A stretch of DNA of 51,565 nucleotides, taken from positions 438,471 through 490,035 of the forward strand of contig CP070678.1 of assembly GCA_020352515.1 (NCBI GenBank). Reading direction: 5' to 3'. Below, in pieces: positions 27,015 to 45,695 of the stretch. Each line of letters begins with the position of its first letter. Position 1 is the first letter of the stretch. The position numbers were made by a program, and so were the translations under genes. The notes under the pieces were generated by a model, which saw nothing but the letters and a program-made list of their open reading frames with translations, ran no database searches and was not told the DNA's origin. Origin of the DNA: Phycisphaerales bacterium. GTDB taxonomy: Bacteria > Planctomycetota > Phycisphaerae > Sedimentisphaerales > Anaerobacaceae.

Positions 27015-28697
27015 TTATCCGGCGACGGGGCGCCCGTCGCCTGACAGATCGTGTTTCGAGTAGATACTTATCATTGAAGCCCGGAGCGAGTGAAGCTGTT
27101 TCTCGCACTGCGCCGTCTTTCCTCCGTCACCGCTCAGAAGCCGTTCGATATGCACTATTGTCAGCATCTTGACCAGCCAGCCGATCCGGTTGTATTCGCG
27201 CACGTTCGAGGCCTCCTCAGTGCTCGACGAAGCCCCGGTAACCCTGATGCGCGGGGAATTCAGAATTAATGATTGGACCCTCCGGCAAAACGGCATGTGC
27301 CTGCGGAATAAGTTATGCGCCCGCGGGTCCCTGAGACGATACTCGTATCCTCTGTAATCGCCCCAAACACCACACTCGGCATAAGCCCGGTCCAGCACTC
27401 CGGTCTGCGGCACGAGCTGGAGGGGCCTGAATACGGGAAACAGTCTTATACGCGGATTTCCACAGAAATCCTTCAGAATCGGCAGGTCCCTTTTCATCAT
27501 TTCAAGCGTTGTCCACGGCGTGTAGAAGATGTAATCCATCGTCACGTCCAGACCCAGCCGGCAAAGGCAGCTAAGCGCCGAGATATTCTGCTGCTTGCTC
27601 ACCTTCTTGTTCAATATCCCCAGGATTTCGTCGTCAAAAGACTCCACACCGATCTCAACACTGTAAAGACCTGCTTCCTTCAGAACTGACATCGTCTCCA
27701 ATTCCACACTGTCGGCGCGACAGTCTATCTTGAAACGAATGTCAAGCTCTCGGCGGCGCAGCTCGTCGGCGAGTCCGAGCGCCCTGTCCCGGCCGCGCCT
27801 TCCCGAACCAATGAATTCAGGATCCACAAAAACGAATTGATTTATCCCATATACGTCGCGCAGATGCTCTATCTCATCCACAATGTTGCATGCGCTTCGC
27901 ACGCGGAGAGACGAAGCACACGACACGCGGTTGAAGGCGCTAATGCTACAAAACGAGCATCCGCCGCTGCATCCGCGCGAGGACGATATTCGAATCTTGG
28001 CGTTGTTTCTGTCACTGATTTCCTGCAGGTCATCTTCAGCCGGAAAGGGGAGATTGTCGAGATCTGCCTCTACTGCGGCAGCAGGGTTGATGACCACCGC
28101 GCCGTCCGGGGCCCGCCGTCCAAGACCCGCAACGTCTCCGAGACCGCCGCCTCCGGCAAGAGCATTTACGTAGGGGACAATACTGTGCTCCGCTTCGCCG
28201 TAGAGTATGTGATCAATCTGTGGATTTTCCGCCAACAGCTCCCTCGCGCATAGACTCGCATGCACCCCGCCGAGCAGCACGACCGCATCCGGATAATTGC
28301 TCTTGATAACGCCGGCGACTTCTTGAACAAGCTCCGCATTGCGGCAAGTCACCGAGAAGCCAACGATATTCGGTTGAACGCCGAGGCCATGCACGGCGGC
28401 AATCGTCTTGCGGACGATGATATCGGAAAGATGCCGCTCGACGTACGGCGAATCCATTGAGAACAGCACGTCCTGGAGTTCGCTTTCATCCAGATAAACG
28501 TTCAATATCCGGGCCTCGTATCCGTGCTTTCTCAATATGGCCGCGAGGTATCGGTACCCGATGTGCTGAGGATGCACGAGGGCATCCGCATACGATTCGT
28601 TGCTCGGCAGCGCGACAAAAAAAACGCGAGGTTTGTTTCGGAAAGGTCGCTCTCCGGCCTGCTTCTTGGCGGGCTCTGTCACACAGTGGACTTTCAA
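27015..28697 (-). CDS. B12-binding-type radical SAM protein
   Basis: A 560-aa protein. The N-terminal ~220 residues resemble a cobalamin-binding domain: VFFVALPSN, HIGYRYLAAILRKHGYEARILNV, IVGFSVTCRNAELV, VVLLGGVHASLCARELL and DHILYGEAEHSIV. The radical SAM barrel follows, with SSSRGCSGGCSFCSI (C243, C247, C250) binding the 4Fe-4S cluster, and FVDPEFIGSG and VEIGVESFDDEIL strands typical of this class. The DxHxxG lower-ligand motif of methionine synthase is absent, as is usual in this class. Such enzymes methylate unactivated carbons or make C-C/C-S bonds. The frame can only begin at a TTG (28697) or a GTG five codons in; neither has a good ribosome site, so expression may be weak or translationally coupled. 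It is near the distal end of the cluster. Confidence 0.85.
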   Translation of the reverse strand: MKVHCVTEPAKKQAGERPFRNKPRVFFVALPSNESYADALVHPQHIGYRYLAAILRKHGYEARILNVYLDESELQDVLFSMDSPYVERHLSDIIVRKTIAAVHGLGVQPNIVGFSVTCRNAELVQEVAGVIKSNYPDAVVLLGGVHASLCARELLAENPQIDHILYGEAEHSIVPYVNALAGGGGLGDVAGLGRRAPDGAVVINPAAAVEADLDNLPFPAEDDLQEISDRNNAKIRISSSRGCSGGCSFCSISAFNRVSCASSLRVRSACNIVDEIEHLRDVYGINQFVFVDPEFIGSGRRGRDRALGLADELRRRELDIRFKIDCRADSVELETMSVLKEAGLYSVEIGVESFDDEILGILNKKVSKQQNISALSCLCRLGLDVTMDYIFYTPWTTLEMMKRDLPILKDFCGNPRIRLFPVFRPLQLVPQTGVLDRAYAECGVWGDYRGYEYRLRDPRAHNLFRRHMPFCRRVQSLILNSPRIRVTGASSSTEEASNVREYNRIGWLVKMLTIVHIERLLSGDGGKTAQCEKQLHSLRASMISIYSKHDLSGDGRPVAG

Positions 28698-28788
28698 AAA
28701 AATTGATTATGCGGCTTTTATCGCTTCGACTCACGCTCTTAGTCGGAATGTGGCGAGCGTCCCTTTCCCGAAATCTGTCCCACGGACG

Positions 28789-29637
28789 CTATGAAGCACT
28801 GGCGTCCTCCAAAACGGACGACAGACGCCTCCAATATTGCTCCAGCAGAACAAAATTCGGCCGCGTTGTCCGGTCGAGAAACTTGAAACGCCTGAATCCT
28901 GACCTCGCCAGAGATGCAAGCTTCACCGGAGAAATAAGCTGTGCATTGTCAATCTCCTCCGGCCTGCCGGCCCTCCTGCGACAGGGAAGCCGCCACGGCC
29001 GCGGAGGCAGCTTTCTTCTAATTCTCACATTCTCTTCCTGGATGAATCGAAGATGTTCCTGCCGATTGGGGCACTTGTACATGCACGTGCAGTTGAGAAT
29101 AATCTCGGTCCTTTCGGGATATTCCAGCGACTCCAAAAACTCTGTCTCGGCGTTAAGGTCGTCCGGCAGAACGACCACGTCGTATTCGTCGTACAGTTGA
29201 TCGAGTTCATTGAGCCTCTGATAGCCGAGGATACTCGAAGCATGAAGAACGTATTCCGGGTAGCTTGCCCGAATGTAGTCTCTCAACAGCTCGTTGGCGA
29301 CAATAACGCCGTTCAATGGAGAGCGGCATCTGCTCAAGACGGCATTGCATGGCCCGTCGCTTAGACTCTCCCGGTCGATCAACGTGTTATTACAAACAAA
29401 CGCGAACCCTATATTTTGCTCGTTCAGGGCCAAGACGTTTCTGATAAGGCTGTCCGTCGAAACAGGGGGAATCATGTAATCCGCTCTTCCGCCGTTCCAG
29501 CGCAATCCGGATGCCGAGCCGAAGAATGTCACGCATATCCTCGTTTGGTCGAATGTCAAATACCTGTCATAGGCACCGGAGTTTATCAGTTCGAATACCA
29601 GACTGTTGCAGGCGAGATTCACATAAAAGGTCGCCAC
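28789..29637 (-). CDS. U32 peptidase/collagenase-like TIM-barrel protein (tentative)
   Basis: A 282-aa protein starting at GTG 29637, five bases after AAAGGAGG; an overlapping ATG two bases earlier is out of frame. The pattern of short beta-alpha units (FAFVCNNTLI, GVIVANELLRDYIRASYP, SSILGYQRLNELDQL, DVVVLPDDLNAETEFLESL) followed by a Cys cluster (LNCTCMYKCPNRQEH) resembles U32-family proteins, in which conserved Cys hold a 4Fe-4S cluster and which serve in RNA or ubiquinone hydroxylation (RlhA, UbiU/UbiV), or act as proteases. The resemblance is by pattern only. Within the cluster it could be a non-classical peptide-modifying or proteolytic enzyme. About 90 bp separate its stop from the next radical SAM gene. 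Confidence 0.45.
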   Translation of the reverse strand: MATFYVNLACNSLVFELINSGAYDRYLTFDQTRICVTFFGSASGLRWNGGRADYMIPPVSTDSLIRNVLALNEQNIGFAFVCNNTLIDRESLSDGPCNAVLSRCRSPLNGVIVANELLRDYIRASYPEYVLHASSILGYQRLNELDQLYDEYDVVVLPDDLNAETEFLESLEYPERTEIILNCTCMYKCPNRQEHLRFIQEENVRIRRKLPPRPWRLPCRRRAGRPEEIDNAQLISPVKLASLARSGFRRFKFLDRTTRPNFVLLEQYWRRLSSVLEDASAS

Positions 29638-29810: not shown

Positions 29811-30353
29811 TCATTCTGCCGCGGGCGCCCGGCCCTCTTCTGCGGCGCGACGAAGCTGCATCCGCGCCGCCGAAAACCTCATGCTCTGTTTACCGTTGTG
29901 CTTTGCCCCGCTCGTGCTGACGCCCCCGCAAATGACTCCTTCCCTGAGATTGAACGGCATGTATAGCCGATGCCGGCGGATGTTCTCCTTCTCAACGATA
30001 CAACCATCCAGTTCGGCGGTTATCAAGTAGTCCGTCGCCAGGTTCATCTTTCTGCCTATGGGTCCCCGATTACGGCGAAGCCGTCCGCCCAGCAAAGTGG
30101 AATCACCAACCGTGCCGTCGACGCCGCCGTCAGGGCCAATTGAAACGGAGATGCTAAGCTCTCTCTCGCTACACCAGGCTACGACTATGCACGCAGCACC
30201 CATCCAGTGGCCCACAAGCTCTGCAGGAAAACGCCTGCGCGCATCCGGCAAAGGCAGCGACCTGAGCACCCGGCGTGGCAACTTCCGGAGCCAACCTGAT
30301 ATCCTCCGACTTATTGAAGCTGCGAGTCGCCGGCCCATCTTCGTCCTTGTCAC
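29811..30353 (-). CDS. Conserved-looking protein of unknown function in the radical SAM cluster
   Basis: A 180-aa frame starting at GTG 30353, with an ATG five codons in (30338); neither has an obvious ribosome site. I do not recognise a named family. The middle has a coherent beta-rich pattern: FPAELVGHWMGAACIVVAWC, LSISVSIGPDGGVDGTVGD, RRNRGPIGRKMNLATDYLI, LYMPFNLREGVICGG. The 'GPDG.V.GTVGD' block looks like a small lipocalin-like or beta-sandwich domain, and codon usage is coherent, so I regard it as real. No signal peptide or membrane helix is visible. It is flanked by a radical SAM gene upstream and the U32-like gene downstream, with 180-bp spacers on each side, unusually loose for this cluster. 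Confidence 0.45.
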   Translation of the reverse strand: MTRTKMGRRLAASISRRISGWLRKLPRRVLRSLPLPDARRRFPAELVGHWMGAACIVVAWCSERELSISVSIGPDGGVDGTVGDSTLLGGRLRRNRGPIGRKMNLATDYLITAELDGCIVEKENIRRHRLYMPFNLREGVICGGVSTSGAKHNGKQSMRFSAARMQLRRAAEEGRAPAAE

Positions 30354-30532: not shown

Positions 30533-31969
30533 CTAATCGAATTCCGAACGAATATTCGGCAGGCCGCTCAGCGATTCCGCAACGTACGCTTGCAGCTCCC
30601 ACGGCGGAAACGGTTCGCTGTAGAGCGAGATTTCCACAAAATCGCCGTTCTTCTGCCCGTACACGCGCCTCGAGCCGCTGTTGAGCACCCAGCGATGCAG
30701 CAAAGTGTTGGGATACACCCGGACACCACAAACATAGTTGAACATGACCTTCTGATGTCTTCTGACGAAGCGAACCGTCTCTTGTATTGTCTCACGGGTT
30801 TCGCCCGGCAGGCCGAACAGCAGCGTGGCCTGCACGTTGATCCCCGCGCCCAGGAGCCTGTCGATGCTCCGTTCAATTTCGTGGGGCGGGAACCGCCGGC
30901 CAATCCCCTCCAGTATTCTCTCAGAAGGGCTGTCTATGGTCAGGCAGACACCCTCACATGCCGAGCTGCCTACCAAATCCGCCGAGCCGTCTGAAAACAC
31001 CGGCAGGCAGTAGGCGCGCCAGTTCATCGCGTACTTGCACAGAAGGCCCACCACCTGCTCGAAGTGTTCTGTTGAAACGGCGTTAAACTCCCCGTCGGCT
31101 ATGAAGACGCGAGACAGACCGCAGGCCCTGATTGCCGAGAGCTCGGCCTCGATGCTCTTGAGACTCCGCAGGCGAACGGGCCTGGGCTGTGTGACTGCCT
31201 CACAGCAGTAACTGCAATTGTAACCGCAACCGCTCTTCGTACGGAGAGGCACAAGCTCGTTTTTCAACAGCGCGATTTTCCGGTGAATACTGTCCTGCTG
31301 AGGGACGTAGTCCAGGTCGATATGATCGGGCTCTGCCGCCGGGCTTTTTGAGAATGCCGTCCGGGCGCGGTCCGCGCAAACCAAACCCGAAATCTGTTGA
31401 ACGCGCCGCCCTTCTACCAGTGCGGCCACAAGCAGCGGAAAGGTGCACTCTCCGGGCCCCCTTATTCCGTAGACAAGGCCAAGGCGTCGCAGAATCTCGA
31501 GCGGCGCTATGGAGAATGCGGCCCCTCCAAGTACAATCCGCTCTGCGGGCAACCCAAGACTGCGAAGCCTTTCAACAAGACTTTTGACATCCTCGATGAA
31601 GCTTTTGCCCACGATGCCGGCTTCATGCGAGACCGGCTTGAACCACGAATCGAGGTTGCGGATGCCGACGCCAACGACCTGCGGCTCAAAACCACCGACA
31701 ACCGCCTCCAGCGACGGAGTAAAGGGCCGTTTAAGGAACGGATCTATAATCTTCACCCTCGAATGGATCGTGCGCCTCAAGGCCTCTGCAATCAGTTCCA
31801 GCCCGTACGGCGGAACGAAGCTCTGCACATTGGGGTTCCCGGATACGAGAAGGACCCGGGTTTCATTTTGCGCCTCCTTCTGTCCGGCAGATTCGCAACG
31901 GGCGCGCTTGTCACCGACGCCCGCCAGCGGCCTGCCGCGTGGTTTACCCGGCATCGTGTCTCCCGCCAT
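30533..31969 (-). CDS. B12-binding-type radical SAM protein
   Basis: A 478-aa protein. Residues ~35-200 resemble a cobalamin-binding domain (VLLVSGNPNVQSFVPPYGLE, VVGVGIRNLDSW, IVLGGAAFSIAPLEILR, YGIRGPGECTFPLLV). The radical SAM core has TKSGCGYNCSYCCEA (C248, C252, C255), VFIADGEFNAVS and LLFGLPGETRETIQETVRFV, the last typical of B12-type and related radical SAM enzymes. The start is either the ATG at 31969 or, better spaced behind GGGAG, the ATG at 31954; the frame overlaps the end of the upstream gene either way. Within the cluster it probably methylates or cross-links the precursor core. Assignment to the superfamily is secure, the reaction is inferred. Confidence 0.88.
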   Translation of the reverse strand: MAGDTMPGKPRGRPLAGVGDKRARCESAGQKEAQNETRVLLVSGNPNVQSFVPPYGLELIAEALRRTIHSRVKIIDPFLKRPFTPSLEAVVGGFEPQVVGVGIRNLDSWFKPVSHEAGIVGKSFIEDVKSLVERLRSLGLPAERIVLGGAAFSIAPLEILRRLGLVYGIRGPGECTFPLLVAALVEGRRVQQISGLVCADRARTAFSKSPAAEPDHIDLDYVPQQDSIHRKIALLKNELVPLRTKSGCGYNCSYCCEAVTQPRPVRLRSLKSIEAELSAIRACGLSRVFIADGEFNAVSTEHFEQVVGLLCKYAMNWRAYCLPVFSDGSADLVGSSACEGVCLTIDSPSERILEGIGRRFPPHEIERSIDRLLGAGINVQATLLFGLPGETRETIQETVRFVRRHQKVMFNYVCGVRVYPNTLLHRWVLNSGSRRVYGQKNGDFVEISLYSEPFPPWELQAYVAESLSGLPNIRSEFD

Positions 31970-33392
31970 ATTTCATCCATTTGCGCGCCAGCCCGCCAAG
32001 ACCACCACCAACTTCCTCACCTTGAAGATGCGGCCGGGCAATCAGCGCACGGTGCTCCTTGAGCCAGTTGCCCAGAGCTGGGCCCCAGAGTTCTCTCCAG
32101 GTCTCCATCGAAACAAAAAAACCGCGAAAATCGTAGTAGGCCCCCGGAAGTGACAATATCCTCTTGATCACGTCCGCGTGATCCAGCAAGACTTCATCAT
32201 GCGCAATCCACCGCCCGGATGCTTCGTCCCACGTATCGAAGATTTGAAAAGCCGTCTTAATCTCCGGAAGCTCGTCAATGTTGCCGAAATAGTCACTGAG
32301 GCAGTAGCAGCCCCTCGTTCTGAATTTGACGCCCATCTCGGCCATGCGACCCATCACCGGTGGGCTCAGGACAAACCAGTGAACGATGGCCCGATTAATG
32401 ATACGGCTCTTGACCATATTCTCGTACAGGAATTCATACGTCATCTCATAATCCTCATCCGAACATCCGGGCAGACCCAGCAATATGTGCACGTGCGACG
32501 TGACCCCAGCCTCTGCAAACCCGCTTAGAATAGGCGCCATGTCTTCTACGCGGATACCTTTTCGGTAAAGATTAAGAATCCTCTGAGAGTACATCTCCAG
32601 ACCCCAGCCCACATCCCGAACGATACGGGCCGTTGCGAGACTCTTCGACAAGTCAACGGCTTGCCTGACCATGCGCATGCCGAAGATATCAAGCAGCGGC
32701 CTGACCTTTTCCGACTCCAGCTTCTCCAGGATAAAACGCAGCTCGTGCGATTCCAGGTGATTGTCCGTAATGTAGAAGAGCCTCCATTTGAACTGACGAT
32801 AGTAGCGAACGAGCCTCGAGCAGAATTCCTCAATAGTGATTTGCCTGCTGTTGCGGTCGGGCCTGTGGTGACAGAACCTGCACTTGCCCCACCCGCAGAC
32901 GAAATCCCCCCGGCTTACCGCAATCGGGCGCTCGCGAGGCCATGGCAGCGCCGGGCCAAGCAGAAAGTCGTCCGGGGCGCGGAAGTCCTCTGCGCGCAGT
33001 ATTCTGTCTCCCTCCGGCGATTCACATTCGAGTGCGTGAAGAATCGCGGATTCCCCTTTTCCAACGACTATGTACGACGTTTCGGGAAAGTATCTCAAGA
33101 ACGCCGTGCAGTCAGAATACGAGAAAAAAGCTCCCCCCAGCAGGAACTTCGGCCACCCCACCGGTGTGAGGCCGGTCTTTCTGACCTCGAGAAAAAACGC
33201 CTCGGTGAGTCTGACATCCCCCAGGGACCCTATAGACAGACAGAAGATCGATTCCGGATCTTCCAGGCCTCTGAGCAACTCTCCGCGGTCGACAGGCAGC
33301 GTCCTGAACCTGTAGGCATTCGGCCTCTGTCTCGAAATGTAGCTGCACAGGCTGAACGCACCGTAGGTCTGGTTGAAATACAAGGTCTTCAT
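31944..33392 (-). CDS. B12-binding-type radical SAM protein with Cx4CxxC cluster motif
   Basis: A 482-aa protein whose ATG overlaps the stop of the upstream gene (ATGA), implying translational coupling. The N-terminal ~150 residues resemble a degenerate cobalamin-binding domain (FCLSIGSLGD, FLLGGAFFSYSD, YIVVGKGESAIL). The cluster motif is VSRGDFVCGWGKCRFCHH (C166, C171, C174), a four-residue first gap rather than the canonical three. The same 'C.WGKC.FC' pattern is known from RiPP-maturation radical SAM proteins, which supports a peptide substrate. Later HVHILLGLPGCSDEDYEMTY is a typical SAM-barrel strand. Probably a radical methyltransferase or related enzyme acting on the precursor core. 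Confidence 0.85.
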   Translation of the reverse strand: MKTLYFNQTYGAFSLCSYISRQRPNAYRFRTLPVDRGELLRGLEDPESIFCLSIGSLGDVRLTEAFFLEVRKTGLTPVGWPKFLLGGAFFSYSDCTAFLRYFPETSYIVVGKGESAILHALECESPEGDRILRAEDFRAPDDFLLGPALPWPRERPIAVSRGDFVCGWGKCRFCHHRPDRNSRQITIEEFCSRLVRYYRQFKWRLFYITDNHLESHELRFILEKLESEKVRPLLDIFGMRMVRQAVDLSKSLATARIVRDVGWGLEMYSQRILNLYRKGIRVEDMAPILSGFAEAGVTSHVHILLGLPGCSDEDYEMTYEFLYENMVKSRIINRAIVHWFVLSPPVMGRMAEMGVKFRTRGCYCLSDYFGNIDELPEIKTAFQIFDTWDEASGRWIAHDEVLLDHADVIKRILSLPGAYYDFRGFFVSMETWRELWGPALGNWLKEHRALIARPHLQGEEVGGGLGGLARKWMKYGGRHDAG

Positions 33393-34318
33393 GGCGCCTG
33401 CCCAAGCTCCGACAGAATCCGGCTGCAGAAGTCACAGTTGTTCCGGGTCGTCGCCTTCCCCTGCGCCAATGCCTCAATACGTCTGCTCAGAATTTGTCCG
33501 AGCTTTCGCCCGAAACGCGGGATAATCTCATCAATTCTCTCCCGCCTGACATCGCCGAGCACGGGCCCCGGACCCTCTATGGGCGAATCGCAGCAAAACA
33601 CAACCTTGCCGTCGAACCTCAGCGTAATGTCCTCCATCGTCAAAAAGTTCGTGCAGAACAGAAGCTCGTGACTCATGCCTATCGAGGAGGTCGGGAAGAT
33701 CATCCCTTTGTACATCCGAAACAGCATCACTATTTTTGCATGAAGAGTTGATTCTTGTTCGCCAGTGAGCTGGACGCTGCCGTTTGCCTCGGTCTTGATG
33801 ACGCGCCCGAGGCACACAACGGGCTTATGAGGCGCCACGAACTTGCAGAAGTCCGTCAGATACGGGTAGTTGTGGCGGTTGAGAATGTGGCCAATATGAA
33901 GCTTGTAGCCCCTGTCTCGAAAAACCTCCATGGCCCGAACCACCCGGTCGAAGCTGCCCTTCCTGCGAACCGCATCGTGCACCTCGGCCGTGTGGCCGTC
34001 CAAACTCAGGGCTATGTAGTGAACGTCTTTCCGGTACCTCTCCAGGAGCGAGACGTAATCATCGTGGAACCAGCCGTTGGTCACAACTCCGACACCGAAC
34101 CCATGCTTGACCGTCAGTTCAAGCACCTCCTCGAACCGCGGAGACAAAATCGGCTCTCCACCCGTGAGCGCGATGGTCTTGACGCCCACCCGTTTCAACA
34201 GCCCAAAGACCTTCTCTACATCTTCGCACGTCAAGTCAGCAGGGGCAGCCTTGCCCCGAAAGCACATCTTGCACTTGAAGTTGCAGCGATTGGTTATGTT
34301 GAAAACGAATCGTTCCAA
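33389..34318 (-). CDS. Short radical SAM protein with SPASM/twitch-like C-terminus
   Basis: A 309-aa protein. The cluster motif NRCNFKCKMCF (C12, C16, C19) begins almost at the N-terminus and LTGGEPILS (53-56) binds SAM, so it lacks the N-terminal domain of the larger paralogues in the cluster. Near the C-terminus lie LLFCTNFLTME, GKVVFCCDS and NNCDFCSRI, an incomplete SPASM or twitch-type set of Cys for an auxiliary cluster. The only in-frame start is TTG at 34318, ten bases after the stop of the upstream gene. Such short radical SAM proteins include MoaA-, PqqE- and AlbA-like enzymes; within this cluster it may install a further modification or cross-link. Its stop overlaps the next gene by four bases. 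Confidence 0.88.
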   Translation of the reverse strand: MERFVFNITNRCNFKCKMCFRGKAAPADLTCEDVEKVFGLLKRVGVKTIALTGGEPILSPRFEEVLELTVKHGFGVGVVTNGWFHDDYVSLLERYRKDVHYIALSLDGHTAEVHDAVRRKGSFDRVVRAMEVFRDRGYKLHIGHILNRHNYPYLTDFCKFVAPHKPVVCLGRVIKTEANGSVQLTGEQESTLHAKIVMLFRMYKGMIFPTSSIGMSHELLFCTNFLTMEDITLRFDGKVVFCCDSPIEGPGPVLGDVRRERIDEIIPRFGRKLGQILSRRIEALAQGKATTRNNCDFCSRILSELGQAP

Positions 34319-35636: not shown

Positions 35637-36831
35637 CGTCACTCCCGGACCGCCCAAGCAGCCACCGGCTCAGCAGCCGGCTATAGTCGGGGCACACACC
35701 GACGCGCCCTTTTCGAGGACACCCATTACTGCATATCGGAAGCATGGGACATGAACGACATTGCGCATCGGAAAACACCAACGGTTCCAAAGGCCACTCA
35801 GAACACGCGCATTCGGAGACAGCGTCCCCGCCCGGGCCCGCGGCCGCATCCGCATCCTCCAGACATCGAAAAACCCCTCCCCGCCAGTCGAAAACCTGTG
35901 CCCTCGGGTTTCTATAAGGGCAATTGCTGTGGAGATTAAGGCCGTTCAAAGCAATCTTGACAGGAATTCCCATATCCCGGATAGAGCAGGCCGCCTCCAC
36001 TTTCGCAGAATTCAGCAAACCGCCCGGCCCCAAACATGAATCCGGCCTGCAGTAAAGCCCTTGTGCGCTTGTACGCAAGTGCAGGCCCCATTGGACTGAG
36101 CCTGTGGTCCCCTGCATGGACGACTTGACCGCCCATCGCAGCCTCATCAGCCGGCGCTCAATGTCCAGGGCATTGTCTGTCACGATGCCTATGTATGCCC
36201 CCCTGCTTCTTGTCGCAATCGCTGTGACCCGCCGGCACGCTGCCAGCACCGTCTCAAATGAATTCTCCCTACGGCTCAGGTCGAACAGAAAGGAAAACGC
36301 GTCCGCAGGCGCATCGTTCAGTTTTGCCGCTTCCGACAGGTCATCCGACATCCACATTACCAGAACCGGCAGCCCGGCAGCGCTCTTTATGCGCAGCATG
36401 GCGCCCAGCAGCTCGATCCGCTCCTCCACCGGGCGACTGCTCCGGCCCAGCAACCTCAGCTTCACCACATCAACAGAACCGCTCGCCGCAAGTTCTCCCA
36501 CATGGCTTTCAATGCGTTTCAGCGCCCTTTTCTCCATGTCGTCCCGGAGGCTTTGAGCAGAGGAAACGAACACTATGTCCGCCCATCGTTCGGATTGTTC
36601 GCGCCGCCGCACCGAATCAAGAAAATGACCATGCTCGTCTCTCGACCTCGGCACAAGCAGCCCGCATTCGGTGAGCAAGCGCCGATTTGTTTCGCTCAGG
36701 CGCTCCAGGTCGGACTTCTTGACGGCGGCAACCACATCTTGCGGCAGCACAACAACCCGCCCCGTAAAGGAATTGTAAATGCCTGTCGAGATTCCGTTGC
36801 CCAGGAATATGTTAAATTGTGACGCCTTCAT
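35623..36831 (-). CDS. Radical SAM/SPASM pseudo-enzyme: SPASM kept, cluster and SAM motifs lost
   Basis: Start set to the ATG at 36831, behind GGAG, where the sequence begins MKASQFNIFLGNG like its five paralogues (a GTG-started frame from 36987 adds 52 unlike residues). 402 aa. Where paralogues have CNxxCPYC this one has SSAQSLRDDMEKRAL, with no Cys, and where they have YGGEP it has LGRSSRP. Thus neither the radical cluster nor the SAM-binding loop remains. The C-terminal SPASM-like Cys are retained: HSNCPYRNP, FRCLED, SECACSEW, CRSCPMLPICSNGC and GVCPDY. This suggests a non-catalytic partner that still binds auxiliary iron-sulfur clusters, perhaps a scaffold or substrate-presenting subunit. 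I see no stop codons or frameshift, so it is not simple decay. Confidence 0.8.
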   Translation of the reverse strand: MKASQFNIFLGNGISTGIYNSFTGRVVVLPQDVVAAVKKSDLERLSETNRRLLTECGLLVPRSRDEHGHFLDSVRRREQSERWADIVFVSSAQSLRDDMEKRALKRIESHVGELAASGSVDVVKLRLLGRSSRPVEERIELLGAMLRIKSAAGLPVLVMWMSDDLSEAAKLNDAPADAFSFLFDLSRRENSFETVLAACRRVTAIATRSRGAYIGIVTDNALDIERRLMRLRWAVKSSMQGTTGSVQWGLHLRTSAQGLYCRPDSCLGPGGLLNSAKVEAACSIRDMGIPVKIALNGLNLHSNCPYRNPRAQVFDWRGGVFRCLEDADAAAGPGGDAVSECACSEWPLEPLVFSDAQCRSCPMLPICSNGCPRKGRVGVCPDYSRLLSRWLLGRSGSDGENF

Positions 36832-38338: not shown

Positions 38339-39724
38339 TCATTGGTTACCTGTCCGGGCCGAACAGCTTAAGTGCTCCCCGGCGCTGGATTCCATGTATG
38401 AGAGTATCCCCTGATAGAACAGTTCCCTCAGATTCCTGCAGTCATCGAGAGTCTCGGGAGGGCGCTCGTTGAGCACACAGCCGCCGCCGCAAACCGGAAG
38501 GTAAACACACCGACGGCACACATCTCTCTCCGAGACTTCTCTCGCCATAGTCTCGAAGTATGAGTCAGTCAAGGTCGCCGCCCCCCCGTCGCCCAAAGTG
38601 CCTGTCCGCAGCGTTTCCCCCACAAACCCACAGCACTTGCGCAGGGCGCCGTCGAAATTCACCGCGAAGCTCATCATGCGGTCGAATCCACACGTGTGGG
38701 CCGCAGGCAGCGGCTTGTCCGGCAGCGTATACTCCCAGTTGAACAGCGGCAGCAGATGATGATTCCTGATAGCCTTGGCCAGCTCCCTGACATGCTGCAT
38801 GCGCCGGCCAAGCGTTTGAGGATCGGTTTTATAGCTGCAAGCCTGCGGGCCAAGTTCCGGAACGTCTTCGATATTCATCAGGTATATGCTTACCTTCTTC
38901 GAGCAGTCGACCCCCGCGGCCGCAAGGTCGTCGAGAATCCGAAGCAGGCCCGCCCCGTCTATATTATCGTAGTGAATCCTGATGCCGAGAATCTTGCCCA
39001 GCCTCAGCGCCGCACCCAGTCCGCCCATTATCTTTGAGTATGATGGCTCGCCCGCCCTCGTGCAGCGGAACCGGTCGTGCAAATCCGCCGGACCATCCAG
39101 AACCGTGTTGATGGCCGTGGCCAGACGAATGACCGGCTCGTCCTTCAAAGCCGCCAGGTGGTAACAATTCGTCGTGAGCGAGTATTGCACGAGAATACCC
39201 TTTTCCCTGCAATAGGACGCCATCTCAGACATGATCATGCCTGAAACGCGCGGATTAAGCAACGGCTCGCCCCCGTAAATCCCAACCGTCACCCTCCGGC
39301 ATCCGTTCTCTTCAATCAGCCTCTGCATGAACCGGATGACGCGACGAGCCGTGCTCTCGTCCATCAGCCCTTCCTTCTCACGCCTCGAGGCGGCCTGGTA
39401 GCAGTAAGGGCACTTGAAGTTGCATGCAGTCGCCGTGTAGAGAAGGAACCTTGCATCCTCCGTTGAGTACTTCTCCCGGTTGCGTCGAAATCGATATTCC
39501 TCAAGCTCATCGCGCTCGGCATCGATTAATATTCCGCTCTCACGCAAAGCCGGCAGCGTCCGCCAAACAAGCTCAGGCAGCATTCGGCCGTTATACGCAA
39601 AACGCAAGAGCCGCCTCGCGACCGAATCACTGACGATACAGAGCCCGCCCGAGAACGTGTTGTAGATGGCGGTCACACCTGCCGGCCGCGAAATATAACA
39701 GTTGAATCTGGACAACTTAAGCAT
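38339..39724 (-). CDS. Radical SAM/SPASM peptide maturase-like enzyme
   Basis: A 461-aa protein whose ATG (39724, behind GAGGG) overlaps the end of the previous paralogue by 8 bases. Layout as in its siblings: N-terminal domain MLKLSRFNCYISR...IYNTFSGGL; radical SAM motif TATACNFKCPYCYQ (C101, C105, C108); YGGEPLLNP; LTTNCYHL; SPASM region with CGFDRMMSF, LRKCCGF, and CRRCVYLPVCGGGCVLNE. One distinctive feature is a Cys-containing segment GPQACSYKTDPQ before the SPASM. It shares only modest identity with neighbouring paralogues, so the copies have probably specialised on different residues or steps rather than being recent duplicates. Confidence 0.9.
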   Translation of the reverse strand: MLKLSRFNCYISRPAGVTAIYNTFSGGLCIVSDSVARRLLRFAYNGRMLPELVWRTLPALRESGILIDAERDELEEYRFRRNREKYSTEDARFLLYTATACNFKCPYCYQAASRREKEGLMDESTARRVIRFMQRLIEENGCRRVTVGIYGGEPLLNPRVSGMIMSEMASYCREKGILVQYSLTTNCYHLAALKDEPVIRLATAINTVLDGPADLHDRFRCTRAGEPSYSKIMGGLGAALRLGKILGIRIHYDNIDGAGLLRILDDLAAAGVDCSKKVSIYLMNIEDVPELGPQACSYKTDPQTLGRRMQHVRELAKAIRNHHLLPLFNWEYTLPDKPLPAAHTCGFDRMMSFAVNFDGALRKCCGFVGETLRTGTLGDGGAATLTDSYFETMAREVSERDVCRRCVYLPVCGGGCVLNERPPETLDDCRNLRELFYQGILSYMESSAGEHLSCSARTGNQ

Positions 39725-41042
39725 AAGCGCCCTCGACCAGCGCGGTCCGCATCAGCAGGCCGAGCGTATCCTGAATGCCGTCGCACTCAGGGGCCGAAAA
39801 TGACCCGTGTTTCCCGAACGCTTTTGCAAAGCATCCGCCCCAGCACTGCGGAAGGTACGCACATTCGGAACATTTCTCATGGTCGAAGGGAGATCTCCGC
39901 ATGATTTCGAAATAGCTCTCAGAGAACGATGCCGTGCCGTCTTCCTCGATTACTCCGACCCGGTAATTCTCATCACCCATTTGAAAGGAGCACAGGTAGA
40001 GGTTCCCGGCCGCGTCTATACTGTAATTGCCCGGCCTGGCAAAGTGACACAATCCCCGCTCCGCTCGAAAAAAGGGAAACGACTGATACTTGTCCGTCCA
40101 GCCCTTCTCGGCAATAACCCGACGAATCCCCACGACCGTCTCCATGTGCTCTGCGCTTTCGATCTTGCCCTGGCAACCTGTTCCCTTGATCCACTTCGAG
40201 AATGCCCCGCTCACCTGGCCGTCGTAAAAAGACAGCTCCTCAATCGCCTTGACCCCGTGTTCATCCAGGTCGTCCAGCGCTTCGGCCATCTCACGACCGC
40301 TGTGTGCGTTAACACGCAGGATGATGCGAACGCCGTGTTCGGCCGCCGTATGGATGCCGCGTATGACACGTTCATACGTCGGGTCCTTCCTGTCGTTCGT
40401 GCGCGTGCGATCGTGCTTCTTCTTTGGTCCGTCAACCGTCGCTTCGAGATAGGTTCGTTCGGGAAATGGAGGACAAAATGTCTTTTCGTCGATCAGCGTG
40501 CCGTTCGTCTGTATCCAGAAACTTATTTTCTTACTGTGCGCTTGCATCCACCCCGCGACATCCGAGGCGATTTGCCGGCATGTATCCAGGGCCAGCAAAG
40601 GCTCCCCCCCGTAGAACTTCAGGGCGGCTGTATGCCTTTCCGGGTCGTCCATGTTATTGCAGATAAACTTGACCGTCCGCCCGGCAATCTCGCGGCTCAT
40701 CAGCCCGGCGTCGTCGTCTGTGCTCCTCTCGTAGCAGTACGGGCATGCAAGGTTGCATTTGGAAGTCGGTGATATTACGAAAGTACACTGCGGCCACGGC
40801 GATTTCATGTGCTCGTACAGCTTCCGGAGGCTGTCCTTTTGCGTCTCTATGCATCTGGTCAGTATGCCCTTGCTTTCAAAATCCGCTCGCTCGCCCGGCG
40901 TCAAAAGCTCTATCCTGCCGCTCCTTATTGCCTCCCGCACTCGCGGCTGTATCCTCAAAATAGTGCCCGTCACGCCGTTATAAATGACCCCGGTGTCCCC
41001 GAAAACCTTCTCCACGATAATGTTATACGGCGATACTCGCAT
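39717..41042 (-). CDS. Radical SAM/SPASM peptide maturase-like enzyme
   Basis: Start placed at ATG 41042, one base after the upstream stop and behind GGTGG, where the frame begins MRVSPYNIIVEKV like its paralogues; an upstream start at 41066 would add eight residues. About 441 aa. Radical SAM motif PTSKCNLACPYCYE (C96, C100, C103), FYGGEPLLA, IQTNGTLID; SPASM region CHFARPGNYS, LYLCSF, and CSECAYLPQCWGGC. A 'GPKKKHDRTR' segment matches the 'GP...HD..R' element seen in peptide-maturase siblings. Probably installs cross-links in the precursor core. Its coding end overlaps the next gene. Confidence 0.9.
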   Translation of the reverse strand: MRVSPYNIIVEKVFGDTGVIYNGVTGTILRIQPRVREAIRSGRIELLTPGERADFESKGILTRCIETQKDSLRKLYEHMKSPWPQCTFVISPTSKCNLACPYCYERSTDDDAGLMSREIAGRTVKFICNNMDDPERHTAALKFYGGEPLLALDTCRQIASDVAGWMQAHSKKISFWIQTNGTLIDEKTFCPPFPERTYLEATVDGPKKKHDRTRTNDRKDPTYERVIRGIHTAAEHGVRIILRVNAHSGREMAEALDDLDEHGVKAIEELSFYDGQVSGAFSKWIKGTGCQGKIESAEHMETVVGIRRVIAEKGWTDKYQSFPFFRAERGLCHFARPGNYSIDAAGNLYLCSFQMGDENYRVGVIEEDGTASFSESYFEIMRRSPFDHEKCSECAYLPQCWGGCFAKAFGKHGSFSAPECDGIQDTLGLLMRTALVEGAYA

Positions 41043-41043
41043 C

Positions 41044-42342
41044 TCAGCCACCCGCGCTTGAGACATCTATCAACCTTTCAATTCGAGAGTCCAGTATTGC
41101 CTTGTTGTTTGTGCAGTAAGAATGACCGTAAGTCTTCCACCTGTTCAGGGCCGAGGTCGGACATCCGCCGCCGCAGAGCGGCAGGTACGGACACGCCCGG
41201 CAATCATCGAACGTCAGCGGGTTTCGCGAGGCCCTCGCGCGGTAGTGCTCGGTGAGCTTGAACGCCCCGCTGTCGTCAAGGTAACCCACACGCCTGTCGA
41301 GGTTGGTGATATTCGTTATACACTTGAACAGGTTGCCGGCCGGATCCACGCAAAACAGGTTCTCATCCGCCACGCACGGCAGAATCTGGACCGCCGGCCT
41401 TCGCGCAGGCAGAACTGACTCCGACAGTCTGATGACCTCACGCTCCAGTTCAGAACCGGGCTCGAAGTAGTTCTTCCGATACTCACACGTCGCCCATTTA
41501 GAGAATTCCCGTAGAACCGCCACCGACGCCTGAACCTTCGGCAGCCCGAGAATCCCGTCTTTCTTCAGCCCTTCGAGCAGCTCCATAATCTCAAAGGCGT
41601 TGTCCAGGCTCGCCTGCGTCCTGATATGAACTCCAATCCCCTCTTTGCTGAGCATGCGAACCGAGTCCAGTATTCGGTCAAATGTCCCCCTGCCGGATTG
41701 AGTCCTCCGAATTCTATCGTGCACATGCCTCGGCCCGTCCAGGGTAACCTGGACACTGTCGAGGTAAGGAGAAAGCAGCCGCACCTTCTCTTTTGTGAAA
41801 AGCACCCCGTTGCTTGACATGGTTGCCATGAACGACACGCCTGAATCTGCGCACCATTCGGCAAACTCGCGAAGCAGGAACAATCCGACATCTAATTCGA
41901 GAAGCGGCTCCCCGCCGAACAGCATGATGCACAATCGACGCGTGCCGTCACTAGCACAACGCTGCTTTACCGCCGCCACGAGCCGAGCGGCGAATTCCCG
42001 CGTCATCGGACCGTCCGCAGCCCTTGGCCCCCTCTCGAAACAATACGGGCACCTGAGATTGCAGCTAAATGTCAGCGCACAAACGTACCGCGCGGTCTTC
42101 CGGTCGGTCATGCGCCGCTCATACGCGAGTCGGTACCACCGGTCCTCGTCAAAGCAGTCCTCGACAACCGCGCCGATCGCCGCAGCCTGCCGCAACGTCC
42201 GCTCCGGCAGACCGTCGATCGTGCCCGCCCGCAGGCGCGCCGCGCTCATCAGGCTAAAAGTACACCATTTGCCCGTCGCCGTGTTGAAAACCGCTGTCCC
42301 GCCCTGTTGCTTGTAAAACAGGTTGAACCTTGAAACCTTCAT
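41044..42342 (-). CDS. Radical SAM/SPASM peptide maturase-like enzyme
   Basis: A 432-aa protein starting at ATG 42342 (weak GAGTG upstream). N-terminal domain MKVSRFNLFYKQQGG...VFNTATGKW; radical SAM motif TFSCNLRCPYCFE (C94, C98, C101); LFGGEPLLE; MSSNGVLFT; VTLDGPRHVHDRIRRTQ; SPASM region PCVADENLF, LFKCIT, and CRACPYLPLCGGGCPT. It shows the highest resemblance to named 'radical SAM peptide maturase' proteins of the CxxC-rich or CXXX-repeat type that I recall, but no subfamily can be assigned by eye. It follows the first maturase of the run after a 68-bp spacer. Confidence 0.9.
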   Translation of the reverse strand: MKVSRFNLFYKQQGGTAVFNTATGKWCTFSLMSAARLRAGTIDGLPERTLRQAAAIGAVVEDCFDEDRWYRLAYERRMTDRKTARYVCALTFSCNLRCPYCFERGPRAADGPMTREFAARLVAAVKQRCASDGTRRLCIMLFGGEPLLELDVGLFLLREFAEWCADSGVSFMATMSSNGVLFTKEKVRLLSPYLDSVQVTLDGPRHVHDRIRRTQSGRGTFDRILDSVRMLSKEGIGVHIRTQASLDNAFEIMELLEGLKKDGILGLPKVQASVAVLREFSKWATCEYRKNYFEPGSELEREVIRLSESVLPARRPAVQILPCVADENLFCVDPAGNLFKCITNITNLDRRVGYLDDSGAFKLTEHYRARASRNPLTFDDCRACPYLPLCGGGCPTSALNRWKTYGHSYCTNNKAILDSRIERLIDVSSAGG

Positions 42343-42410: not shown

Positions 42411-43844
42411 TTAGCAGTCGTCGGCGACAAGGTCGCTTGAAGCACTGACCGGCACGAGGAGAGATTCATCGGCGCCGCGCGACGTGAGCACGTCATTGAT
42501 GTAGCGGTCAACGGTCTCGCGGCACTCCTGACGACAAGCGCCTGTTCGCAGAGTAGGCTCATCCTGGTCAATGGCGCCGAGAGGGCATTTCGACAGACAC
42601 ATCGGAAGGTAGGCGCATTTGCGGCACACAGGATCAGAATAAGGGCTGAAGTTGACTATCCGCAGGTATTGACCGTGCGAAAGAGCCTGCTGCGGGTCGC
42701 TTACGTGCCCGAATATCAGGCCCGGGTCATTCTCTCGCACATGACACATCTGCAGCCTCCCGTCCGGCCTGAAGGCAAACCGATTCCCGCGGACGTACTC
42801 GCAGCAAAGCTCGAAGCCACAACCCCCGATGCCGGGAGTGACGGGAAACGCGGTCCTGAGAAAAACGTGCTTGCCCGGCCTGCTGAAATGCTTGTCCGGC
42901 CAGGGACTATCCTTCTGCGCGTCTCTCACTATTGTCTCCAGGCTGTGGTGCTTGCGGCTCATCTGTTCCTGCACTTCCGGGCTCGACCTGTCAATGTCCG
43001 GCGGCCGCAGAATCTTGAACGTAAAAGCGATCTTCTCGTAAAGCTCCCCTCCGAAGGCGCTCAGAATGTCGTTCAAAACTACCGGCATGTCCAGCGGAAT
43101 CCTCTCCGGCTGCGACACGTTGAAGCGCACTTTGATCTGCTTGCCCAGCTTCGCCGCCAGAGCCATGCCTTCCAAGACAGCGTCGTAACTGTTGCGCCCG
43201 TCCAGATAAGGACGCTCACGCCCCTGAGCCTCGCGAGATTGCGCCATGCCCGTGTAGAAATAGTCCATCCCGTCAACCATGCCGCGGGAGGCTTTGGCGG
43301 TCAGAAGTGTCCCGTTGGTCGTGACCGCGAAATATGATCCCACGTCGCGCTGCGAACATATACGCTTGAGCCCCTCGATAACCTTCTGGCATTGCCCGGG
43401 ACACATGAACGGTTCCCCCCCATAAAACCACGCCCAAATGCCGGTGGTCCCCCTCTCGTCCAGCAGGTGCCGCGTAAACGTCACCACCGATTCGACCGTC
43501 TCGTACGTCATCTTCTCGGTCTTGTCGAAATCATACTGCACGCAATGCGTACAGCCAAGATTACACGCATACGTGGGCGTTACGGTCAGGACCCACAGAG
43601 GATACTTCTGCCGTTCCTTCATGTACCTGAGGTAGTACTCTTGTGCCTCACGCTCCGGCGATGGAACCAGCATCCCCTGCTTGATCAAATCCAGCCGCTG
43701 CGGCAGCGTCAGCCCCGACAGGCTTCTCTCAGACAATGACTGATACGCTGACCCCGGCAGCAATACGATGTTAGAGGTCCTCGTATTGAAAAGACATGTC
43801 TTGTCTGACCGTCTGGAAACAATGGTATACTGGGAGAATCTCAT
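42411..43844 (-). CDS. Radical SAM/SPASM enzyme, first maturase after the precursor
   Basis: A 477-aa protein; ATG at 43844 follows GGAGGGTAGGA, the strongest ribosome site in the cluster, which suits the first enzyme of the run. N-terminal domain MRFSQYTIVSRRSDKTCLFN...; radical SAM motif TYACNLGCTHCVQYDFD (C94, C98, C101), FYGGEPFM, VTTNGTLLT; SPASM region FELCCEY, LQMCHV, and CRKCAYLPMCLSKCPLGA. It diverges most from the other four: its motif is CTHC rather than CPYC, and a larger middle insert is present. 259 bp separate its start from the precursor stop; that spacer holds no credible small gene. Confidence 0.9.
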   Translation of the reverse strand: MRFSQYTIVSRRSDKTCLFNTRTSNIVLLPGSAYQSLSERSLSGLTLPQRLDLIKQGMLVPSPEREAQEYYLRYMKERQKYPLWVLTVTPTYACNLGCTHCVQYDFDKTEKMTYETVESVVTFTRHLLDERGTTGIWAWFYGGEPFMCPGQCQKVIEGLKRICSQRDVGSYFAVTTNGTLLTAKASRGMVDGMDYFYTGMAQSREAQGRERPYLDGRNSYDAVLEGMALAAKLGKQIKVRFNVSQPERIPLDMPVVLNDILSAFGGELYEKIAFTFKILRPPDIDRSSPEVQEQMSRKHHSLETIVRDAQKDSPWPDKHFSRPGKHVFLRTAFPVTPGIGGCGFELCCEYVRGNRFAFRPDGRLQMCHVRENDPGLIFGHVSDPQQALSHGQYLRIVNFSPYSDPVCRKCAYLPMCLSKCPLGAIDQDEPTLRTGACRQECRETVDRYINDVLTSRGADESLLVPVSASSDLVADDC

Positions 43845-44103: not shown

Positions 44104-44826
44104 CTACGTGTCCATCCGGTTCTCCTGGTCCCGAGGACTCTCGCCCGGACAGCACGCGCGCGCCGCACATGGACTGCACGAGCCCCCGCAAATCCAGCCC
44201 CAGTAGTGGAATACGCAACAACCGTAATCCGTGGCCCCGCCCGGAGCACAACTGCTGCTGCTACTGCTGCTGGCGGGCGTCGCTGATGACTGCACTCCGC
44301 TCGAGAACACTATTGCCTCTTCCGAACCGGATTCGTAACCCATCCTGTCAAAACCACTAACGTTCTCAAACAGCTCTGAAGCGTGCAGAATCTTGCGGTA
44401 GCGCCCCTCGACTGTCCGCCCGTCCATCCGGCCCAGGACCGGCTCCAGCACCCCACGATTCTCGTTGAACAGGTTGATCAGCATCACGCTGTCAACACCC
44501 TCAAGAACCGCCGAACCGAACTTCGCGTCCGAAACCATCGCCTTGACCACCTCTTCCACCGCCGTAACATACTCCATACAGGCTTTAGGATTCTCCGCGA
44601 TGTGCTTGAATTTGGACGCATTCAGAGCGAACTTCTCAGGCTGCTCCTGCCACGGCGTTGCGCCTTGCGCGGATTCACCCTTGAGTCCGCCCAGAGCGCC
44701 GGCGGCAGTCCCCGCAGCAATCGCCTTCAAGACGTCCCTTCGTCGCCTCTTGGATTTGGAAATCCCCTTTGACGCCCCGCTATTCTTGTTCGTTCCGGGG
44801 CCTTTTGGTGTCCCACTTGTCCCCAT
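44104..44826 (-). CDS. Tat-targeted Ser/Cys-rich RiPP precursor-like protein
   Basis: Start at ATG 44826, 8 bases after AAGGAG (a GTG three codons upstream would overlap the ribosome site). 240 aa. Residues 1-30 are Gly/Ser/Lys-rich, ending in RRRRDVLKAIAAG, a twin-arginine signal with hydrophobic stretch to ~55. Residues ~60-165 form a helical leader-like domain (FKHIAENPKACMEYV, VLEGVDSVMLINLF, YRKILHASELF). The C-terminus (about 183-226) is a putative core: seven Ser in a row (186-192) encoded by AGC/AGT triplets, then a Gly-, Cys- and aromatic-rich stretch with Cys at 193, 203, 204, 213, 217, 220, 225 and 226 around YWGW. Surrounding maturase genes make this the probable substrate: modified in the cytoplasm, then exported folded by Tat. 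No known leader family (Nif11, nitrile-hydratase type) is evident. Precursor role is inferred. Confidence 0.7.
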   Translation of the reverse strand: MGTSGTPKGPGTNKNSGASKGISKSKRRRRDVLKAIAAGTAAGALGGLKGESAQGATPWQEQPEKFALNASKFKHIAENPKACMEYVTAVEEVVKAMVSDAKFGSAVLEGVDSVMLINLFNENRGVLEPVLGRMDGRTVEGRYRKILHASELFENVSGFDRMGYESGSEEAIVFSSGVQSSATPASSSSSSSCAPGGATDYGCCVFHYWGWICGGSCSPCAARACCPGESPRDQENRMDT

Positions 44827-45113
44827 GTGCGTCACTCCTTACAAAAAGACAATAATCCTTCAATTTCGGCAGAACGCCCCCCTTACATATTCTTGGAAAG
44901 GCATCTCCATGCCCGCCACAGCATCACAAAGACCGGCCCCTCTGGGCCGCCCTGATCCTCACCCTGCATTCGCCGGGCAGTCTGAATGCCTGTCTATTAG
45001 GTAGTTGCCATAAAGACCAAGAATTAAAGAAAGAAAATTGGCGGAATCCCGGATTTTTTCCAACCCGCCCGGTGACAAGCAGTTGGGGCGGAAAACTGCC
45101 ACGCTGATACCGC

Positions 45114-45695
45114 TCAAGGTCCCGCCTCAACGCGCGACACAAGAGATCCCTTTTGCCTGCCCAGCTTGTCCATCGCGTAGTACAGACGTTCGTAGAACGC
45201 GGATGTCGAGCAGCCTGCTCTTTGGGCGGCCTCTTTTACGCTAAGGCCGTGCACAAACCGCAGAACCAGCGCCTCATCCGCCTTCGTTGACGGCCGGTCC
45301 CCTATCTCCGCAAGCACCTTGCCCAGCTCATCCAGAAGAAGCTTGTGCGGGCATTGACTCGGCGCGGCCGGTATGCGACCGGCGAATTCCTCGGCAGAAC
45401 CCAATTGGATAAGGCGCGGCTGTCTCTTCCTGCGGCGAATATGTCGCACTATCAAGTTCTTGGCCACTCCAAGAAGATAGGCCTGCGGATCGCTCTGAGC
45501 ATCGTATTTCATGTTGCCTCTGCATAACTCCACGAAAACACTCTGGGCCAGGTCCTCGGCCTCCTGCTCGCGATGAACCCTGAGCCGGATATAGCTCTTT
45601 ATACGGTTATAGTACTTCACGTGGAGAGCCCCGATGGCCTCCCTGTCTCCTTCATTCGCTGCCTGAGCCAGAAGGACATTATCCGCTTTTTCCAC
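45114..45695 (-). CDS. ECF-type RNA polymerase sigma factor
   Basis: A 193-aa sigma-70-family protein starting at GTG 45695 (no strong ribosome site). Region 2 is DREAIGALHVKYYNRIKSYIRL, EQEAEDLAQSVFVELCRG and DPQAYLLGVAKNLIVRHIRR; region 4 is ADEALVLRFVHGLSVKEAAQRAGCSTSAFYERLYYAM. Regions 1 and 3 are missing, as in extracytoplasmic-function sigma factors. Planctomycetes carry many such factors. It lies 287 bp upstream of the precursor gene on the same strand, and so is the likely activator of the cluster. No anti-sigma gene is adjacent, which suggests control by other means or by a distant partner. Confidence 0.9.
   Translation of the reverse strand: MEKADNVLLAQAANEGDREAIGALHVKYYNRIKSYIRLRVHREQEAEDLAQSVFVELCRGNMKYDAQSDPQAYLLGVAKNLIVRHIRRRKRQPRLIQLGSAEEFAGRIPAAPSQCPHKLLLDELGKVLAEIGDRPSTKADEALVLRFVHGLSVKEAAQRAGCSTSAFYERLYYAMDKLGRQKGSLVSRVEAGP

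Follow-up and report, generated by a model that had tools for sequence, protein, structure and literature searches.

A planctomycete cluster of radical SAM enzymes with RiPP-like features, built around an ordered SPASM array and a Cys-rich candidate precursor

The window analysed here, 51,565 bp of DNA from a Phycisphaerales bacterium (bases 438,471-490,035 of the genome, a single contig of 5.84 Mb that is 87.5% complete), carries at 27,015-45,695, on the minus strand throughout, a cluster of radical S-adenosylmethionine (SAM) enzyme genes and a gene for a cysteine-rich, precursor-like protein. We think it quite probable that the cluster is a maturation line of the type that produces ribosomally synthesized and post-translationally modified peptides (RiPPs), in which five radical SAM/SPASM enzymes (R1-R5) and a B12-type enzyme (B1) would successively crosslink and methylate one Cys/Ser/Trp-rich core before its export by the twin-arginine translocation (Tat) route. 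This RiPP-like reading is well supported because a related core and an R-type array occur together in an archaeon, a member of the Acidobacteriota has R1-R5 in identical order, and the modelled fold of R5 is like that of the maturase CteB. A preliminary description of this DNA, which had proposed a RiPP-like cluster with a Ser/Cys-rich, Tat-exported precursor, is partly supported by the same comparisons; all open reading frames (ORFs) that it listed are present, with correct coordinates and strand.

The candidate substrate is a 240-residue protein (44104..44826, minus strand) directly next to R1, composed of a Tat signal, a middle domain, a serine run and a Cys-rich tail. Its probable start is the ATG at 44,826, which stands behind a good ribosome-binding sequence and at which both database homologues begin. 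These two homologues, 94% and 73% identical, were the only ones among 645 candidates drawn from a search of ~5.8 billion proteins. Conservation in the 73% homologue is uneven: 21/27 residues are kept in the Tat signal region (44662..44742, minus strand; RRDVLKAIAAGTAAGALGG...), 75/93 in the middle domain (44326..44604, minus strand), which we propose as a leader-like recognition domain, and 42/48 in the C-terminal core from C196 to the end (44107..44250, minus strand), compared with 9/28 at the N-terminus and 6/19 in the spacer behind the Tat region. The serine run (44251-44271, minus strand) lies ahead of the core. Eight cysteines are in the tail (positions 196, 206, 207, 216, 220, 223, 228 and 229) and one is in the middle. 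The Ser/Cys-rich precursor of the preliminary description is thus present as claimed, and so is its Tat signal, as a predicted export signal with the twin arginines in place: TIGR01409 scores 19.0 bits against a cut-off of 16.7, and the Tat model PF10518 scores 17.8 bits, under its cut-off of 22.7. Apart from Tat-signal models, no Pfam or NCBIfam model matches the precursor at E<=0.01.

A related core stands beside an R-type array in a Methanosaeta metagenome-assembled genome (MAG; locus L004), which was retrieved by its enzyme and not by its core peptide. Just upstream of the array, an 86-residue ORF (4145-4405), a TAG codon and a peptide ORF (4433-4594) share one frame; the peptide ORF ends in SSSSCSSCDERGSLLGCCIIHFWCWEAGHGACC, with a core of ~48 residues. 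In a phmmer search of 19,584 ORFs from 171 loci, this peptide and the tail of the window precursor matched at E=1.5e-5. Their local alignment score of 92 was reached in none of 20,000 shuffles, and the score of 65 that remains without the serine run in 3 of 20,000. The motif common to the two is SSSSC...GCC-x-x-H-[YF]-W-x-W. The 86-residue ORF and the middle domain of the precursor align with a score of 55 (3 of 20,000 shuffles), and we propose that this ORF and the peptide may represent a split leader arrangement. Pyrrolysine read-through of the TAG was considered and set aside: the PylS model stays under its cut-off in that genome (1 of 14 control genomes exceeded it), and the TAG is taken as a stop. 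A database search with the 48-residue Methanosaeta peptide gave no candidate protein with enough shared words, and the core DNA pattern had no match in the viral contigs. The Methanosaeta locus has seven core cysteines and seven intact R enzymes; one enzyme per cysteine is nevertheless unsupported, because the window has eight cysteines and five intact R enzymes.

The five enzymes of the array follow the precursor on the minus strand: R1 (42411..43844; PF04055, 45.7 bits), R2 (41044..42342; 56.5 bits), R3 (39717..41066; 43.3 bits), R4 (38339..39724; 44.4 bits) and R5 (36991..38337). All match PF04055 at 43-57 bits and carry both the CxxxCxxC motif and SPASM cysteines in the pattern CX2CX5CX3C, as expected of the five radical SAM/SPASM enzymes described for the cluster. 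Mutual identity among them is 20-31%. Their best NCBIfam neighbours are the same, namely CefB (NF038107), TIGR04463 and geopeptide (TIGR04280), with curated cut-offs of 600, 525 and 400 bits, and all R scores fall far below these (NF038107: R2 223, R5 203, R3 176 and R4 162 bits; TIGR04280: R1 107 bits and, as the best, R2 155.8 bits). The R5 model has a CteB-like maturase fold and matches both CteB (a SCIFF thioether maturase, PDB 5why/5wgg) and TigE (PDB 8vpo) from its first residues on, at 16% sequence identity; its N-terminal region may, on this model, be related to the RiPP recognition element (RRE-like). In a protein search with an R1-R5 profile, in which the best 7,996 candidates by shared words were scored, close relatives in other assemblies were 87% and 78% identical to R1 and 89% and 74% identical to R5, values similar to those of the precursor homologues.

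More distant arrays came to light when GTDB contigs were scanned with an alignment of R5-type sequences; the best 80 of 387 relatives were kept, and of 161 loci no more than 40, each having at least two matches, were compared. A 6,951-bp contig of Candidatus Sulfotelmatobacter (Acidobacteriota; L002) holds R1-R2-R3-R4-R5 in the order of the window, with identities to the cognate enzymes of 30, 43, 38, 32 and 41%; a Deltaproteobacteria MAG (Myxococcota; L003) holds B1-R1-R2-R4-R5; and the Methanosaeta MAG holds seven tandem R-type genes with B1 on the opposite strand. We placed these genes in a maximum-likelihood tree of 61 hand-picked rows (23 of 112 database proteins plus the window and locus genes). 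Here R1 forms a clade with its Acidobacteriota and Myxococcota cognates (support 100/99), R2 with L002_g2 and L003_g2 (100/100), R3 with L002_g3 (100/100), R4 with L002_g4, L003_g3 and the database protein P0044 (100/99), and R5 with its cognates including P0035 (100/100). P0044 and P0035 are probably encoded on the same contig (for both, the longest contig is 18,561 bases). The R clades recur in a smaller tree that includes the SPASM protein R6, with R4 more weakly supported (85/71 with L003_g3, 96/83 without it). The Methanosaeta genes have no one-to-one orthology with R1-R5; two lean weakly to R2 and R3. R1-R5 are thus five separate, well-supported clades, and on these phylogenies the array has a long history as a set.

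B1 (34329..35657, minus strand) belongs to the same association. Its homologues beside the Myxococcota and Methanosaeta arrays are 41% and 33% identical to it, and in all three genomes its best NCBIfam model is TIGR04190 (B12_SAM_Ta0216), at 177 (176.8) bits in the window, 175 in the Myxococcota and 230 in Methanosaeta, below the 500-bit cut-off. B1 is a predicted B12-binding radical SAM protein (PF02310 37.6 bits, cut-off 32.1) with an intact CX3CX2C motif (CRGNCSFC), but its PF04055 score of 24.3 bits is under the cut-off of 29.5. From these sequence comparisons, the conserved kit consists of the core, the R array and B1, and the remaining enzymes look like local additions.

R6 (35623..36831, minus strand; start probably at 36,831) is a SPASM pseudo-enzyme, as had been suggested: CxxxCxxC is lost, the SPASM cysteines are retained, and both termini are similar to those of R-type enzymes. 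It has no Pfam match at E<=1 and takes no firm position in the smaller tree. A second pseudo-enzyme is the Myxococcota gene of the R1 clade (5199-7331 of its contig), which has likewise lost CxxxCxxC and kept the SPASM cysteines. Because the motif has been lost twice, apparently independently, some array positions are suggested to serve as partners.

The concentration of radical enzymes that the preliminary description had noted, ten for one candidate substrate, is real. Ten of the 44 PF04055 matches in the whole genome lie within 16 kb (465,968-482,050 in genome coordinates), nine of them above the cut-off, which rules out chance clustering of radical SAM genes. From R1 to B3 the genes are packed as in an operon, at distances of -35 to +68 bp, the one exception being 159 bp ahead of the preferred R6 start; after R6, the genes B1, S1, B2 and B3 are separated by only -35 to +10 bp, and beyond B3 the gaps grow to 179, 173 and 91 bp. 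Internal terminators show no excess in the cluster (16, compared with 19.0 in shuffles), and the region upstream of R1 gives no signal of structured RNA (z -1.03). The first cluster gene encodes the extracytoplasmic function (ECF) sigma factor that had been reported (45114..45695, minus strand; PF04542 53.2 bits, PF07638 41.2 bits), a likely regulator of the cluster. The string GAGGATCA, followed after 14 bases by GGCCGG, occurs upstream of both the precursor (44827-45113) and R1 (43845-44103); as a common ECF promoter motif, this single bipartite string is too weak and may be due to chance.

Taken together, these features suggest how the cluster might work. The ECF sigma factor would turn on the precursor and enzyme genes, and the middle domain of the precursor would be the recognition element gripped by N-terminal RRE-like regions of the enzymes. 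Each R enzyme may then act at its own site in SSSSC...GCCVFHYWGW...CSPC...CC, most plausibly to make a Cys thioether or an aromatic C-C link; for their part B1, B3 and B4 may add methyl groups, form C-C bonds or carry out rearrangements, with R6 as a putative non-catalytic docking partner. S1, B2-B4, the U32-like protein and X1 could provide lineage-specific tailoring. Tat would carry the folded product out of the cytoplasm, presumably since the Sec channel could not take a crosslinked tail.

How does this arrangement compare with described systems? The general hallmark of a RiPP, maturase genes adjoining the gene for a ribosomal precursor whose conserved core can be modified, is found here. 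The systems of CteB and TigE have one such maturase each; in the cluster and its relatives, there are five to seven related enzymes side by side. On the features compared, it fits neither the CefB nor the geopeptide system: the best maturase scores, both from R2, are those given above, under the cut-offs, and the spacing of the tail cysteines does not follow a Cys at every fifth position, a pattern taken from the CefB family name alone. Proteusin precursors have leaders of the nitrile-hydratase-like or Nif11 type; the window precursor matches Tat-signal models only. For sactipeptides and ranthipeptides, the eight tail cysteines and the modelled thioether-type maturase fold are suggestive only. 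B1 likewise stays outside the TIGR04190 family as curated. A partner role for R6 has a precedent in thuricin CD: TrnC and TrnD are reported to form one complex in which radical activity is strictly required of TrnC only, with the difference that two enzymes and two precursors are involved (PMC12093266). Polytheonamide and bottromycin each depend on several radical SAM enzymes, including B12-dependent methyltransferases, but these number two and three, and within the sections of the source that bear on them no such SPASM array is described (PMC5682303). The open-licence literature contained no mention of 'Cys-every-fifth', 'TIGR04463' or 'NF038107'. Nor did it yield, among the papers listed, a described system of this composition, in agreement with the preliminary description, subscription papers being outside the scope of the search.

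Several observations weigh against the RiPP-like maturation line. The core peptide was seen in only one of the three array-bearing relatives. A core profile run against nine genomes was convincing only for Methanosaeta (2.0e-21), whose sequence was itself part of the query. Similarity of the 86-residue Methanosaeta ORF to the middle domain is weak and went unreported by phmmer at E<=1; the Methanosaeta peptide has neither a Tat signal nor a middle domain, so that Tat export is no general feature. None of S1, B2, B3, B4, the sigma factor, the U32-like protein or X1 was found in the three array loci, two of whose contigs end at the array, and Pfam and NCBIfam scans recognised no peptidase, exporter or immunity gene among the cluster genes. 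The Myxococcota R1 has a long branch (2.05) and an odd composition, which bear on its place in the tree, and its loss of CxxxCxxC means that not every R position needs catalysis. The structural alignment ranges for R5 (VIA-align) give the first and last aligned residues only, so that its N-terminal region is only partly tested.

Other results of the core searches bear on the first of these points. No core gene was found in the Acidobacteriota and Myxococcota genomes, where the contigs end near the array (L002 at 245 bp ahead of R1 and, at its other end, within R5 or immediately behind it; L003 at 358 bp behind R5). An Acidobacteriota match to the core profile at E 0.0013 was rejected; it contains one internal stop, has no cysteines in the stated frame and overlaps a 360-residue ORF on the opposite strand. 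The 15 other matches listed for the nine genomes had E values of 0.034-0.97.

We considered what else the cluster could be. The product might be a cofactor-bearing protein: the radical enzymes would build crosslinks or a redox or metal site into its tail, and the entire protein, middle domain included, would work outside the cytoplasm, by a logic that has its parallel in the maturation of quinohemoprotein amine dehydrogenase (QHNDH). The Tat signal on the full 240-residue protein, the strongly kept middle domain and the lack of a recognised peptidase or dedicated exporter all fit such a product, and the R enzymes do score on the QHNDH maturase model TIGR03906, at 48-85 bits, far under its cut-off of 453. 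The Methanosaeta core, however, is a separate, RiPP-looking peptide ORF of ~48 residues without middle domain or Tat signal, and no enzyme subunit genes are seen nearby; we regard a cofactor-bearing protein as a possible outcome, appreciably less probable than a RiPP-type maturation line. That line could also be shorter than the cluster, with only R1-R5 and B1 acting on the precursor and S1, B2-B4, the U32-like protein and X1 forming a second, co-oriented pathway. That R-type genes and B1 were the only members seen in the three array loci favours this division, as does the widening of the gaps past B3. On the other hand, B1, S1, B2 and B3 are so closely spaced after R6 that they are probably co-transcribed, no candidate for a second substrate is seen, and two Zixiibacteriota contigs with R-type, S1-like and B4-like matches (below) hint at an older link. 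A second pathway seems to us rather unlikely.

A different objection concerns the array itself, which might be a set of paralogues produced by local amplification, serving redundancy or dosage with no site-specific roles. R1-R5 do share their best NCBIfam neighbours, and the seven Methanosaeta genes do not correspond to them one to one. Yet the five enzymes are just 20-31% identical to one another, each of their clades is common to other bacteria, and all five are ordered alike in the Acidobacteriota contig. Amplified copies would join in the tree, and R1-R5 do not; we therefore reject local amplification and consider it very improbable. Returning to the RiPP-like maturation line, the cluster probably works like a RiPP pathway, and there is a fair chance that it is a new class. 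In its fullest form, this would be an undescribed bacterial and archaeal RiPP class in which a fixed, ordered and non-interchangeable radical SAM/SPASM set (five members in bacteria, seven in Methanosaeta) and a B12 enzyme introduce one bond each into a single core, dead members serve for docking, and the host adds four radical enzymes and Tat export; we judge the chances of this specific proposal to be about even.

The distribution of the system was examined in large genome searches, in which at most four or six candidates were scored per genome. The preliminary description had called for a search for the conserved neighbourhood in other planctomycete genomes. The precursor was unmatched in all 60 further genomes close to the host and in all 88 others of its family (the two sets overlap); R1-R5 recur in the Acidobacteriota contig. 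NF038107 at E<=1e-25 matched in 6 of 397 genomes of the class, with more than one match in the host alone (up to four candidates scored in each). With the R5 profile at 1e-60, and the centre genome included, matches were found in 2 of 392 genomes of the host's phylum, 1 of 250 of the class of the Acidobacteriota relative and 2 of 282 of the phylum of the Myxococcota relative. The extra genomes, G704 and G1361, have a single R-type gene each in the stretch read, in G704 on a contig of 5,012 bp and in G1361 adjoining a weak B4-like match. In the order of Methanosaeta, 4 of 50 genomes matched at 1e-40, with seven matches in the genome of the array and one to three elsewhere. This very sparse distribution in the sample fits transfer or repeated loss.

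Plasmid carriage and a link to phages were considered and set aside. R5 matched 74 of 72,556 plasmid records, all at less than 60% identity, and at 21-27% among the ten listed. In the viral collection (best 80 of 105 loci), multi-enzyme loci occurred solely at 22-36% identity among the loci listed. Several viral contigs (L087, L099, L105, L118, L121 and others) carry three radical SAM ORFs and an S1-like radical SAM ORF, and several of them also a U32-like ORF ~30% identical to that of the window; such a set could be a phage-borne modification module. Another contig of the viral collection (L082, 6320-8032) has a lone R-type gene that scores 210 bits against the R1-R5 profile. In one Theionarchaea genome the R-type profile matches 44 times at E<=1e-15, several of these matches being beside short Cys-rich ORFs (such as MKAISLNKKLW...), for instance at 7164-7331 (minus), 13301-13465 (minus) and 15480-15629 (plus) of L021, and in L008 and L165-L171; these may constitute an archaeal repertoire of radical SAM peptides.

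The remaining cluster genes, all on the minus strand, are less uniform. Four B12-type radical SAM enzymes had been proposed. B1, B3 (30533..31969; PF04055 56.9 and PF02310 35.8 bits; TIGR04072 157 bits, under cut-off) and the ApyD-like B4 (27015..28697; PF04055 58.3 and PF02310 50.1 bits; ApyD NF050148 116 bits, under cut-off) bear this out with PF02310 domains, but B2 (31944..33392; PF04055 33.9 bits; a weak TIGR03975 match of 34.9 bits) has no detectable B12 domain, and its radical SAM motif is CX4CX2C in place of CX3CX2C. The enzyme described as a short radical SAM protein, S1 (33389..34318; PF04055 93.9 bits), is one, with the correction that it also has a short SPASM domain (PF13186 22.8 bits, cut-off 21.5). 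On two Zixiibacteriota contigs (L007, L023) an R-type gene is followed by S1-like and B4-like matches at 25-32% identity. The U32-like label (28789..29637) is weak: no Pfam model, PF01136 included, matches at E<=1, there is no NCBIfam match and no relevant PDB match by sequence, and the assignment rests on ~30% identity to viral U32-like ORFs, of which the two scanned gave weak Peptidase_U32 matches (E 0.0018 and 0.0047). Its low-confidence model (predicted local distance difference test score, pLDDT, 61.9) has the U32 protein 5d88 as best PDB match, with other barrel proteins close behind, and offers a hint only. X1 (29811..30353; 180 residues) has no family assignment, with no Pfam match at E<=0.01 or NCBIfam match and a single chance-level Pfam match at E 0.073. 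X2 (25668..26939) follows B4 after a gap of 75 bp; it looks like a secreted protein and matches no Pfam or NCBIfam model, and its membership in the cluster is uncertain.

Further features lie around the cluster and its relatives. In the Myxococcota contig, tatA and tatC (3189-4510) lie directly upstream of the B1/R array on the same strand, an arrangement that is suggestive only; tat genes are common. In the window, a tyrosine integrase ORF (45998-47863) adjoins the cluster, its 3' end running antisense over a tRNA-Ser (46238-46322). Carriage of the cluster as cargo of an integrative element is unsupported: the 3' end of the tRNA occurs once in the window, and the cluster is on the 5' side of the tRNA. 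On the other flank, the plus strand carries a fused MFS/spermidine synthase with TPR repeats (22069-25317, beside the cluster), and a carbohydrate group on the minus strand at 13240-21111 comprises GH32, a sulfatase with a near-cut-off Tat signal, a GFO/IDH oxidoreductase, a ceramidase-like protein and a GH130/43-like protein.

If the proposed function is correct, one substrate would be served by more radical enzymes than in any other pathway known to us, and by a set that has been kept together in order across distant bacteria. It would then be possible to test the way in which a single peptide is shared among radical enzymes, in what order they act and what role their non-catalytic relatives play. 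With its dense modifications, the Cys/Trp/His tail produced here could represent a redox or metal-binding group of a new kind, or else a bioactive peptide that is new, and the common core motif would help in searching archaea and other bacteria for similar systems.

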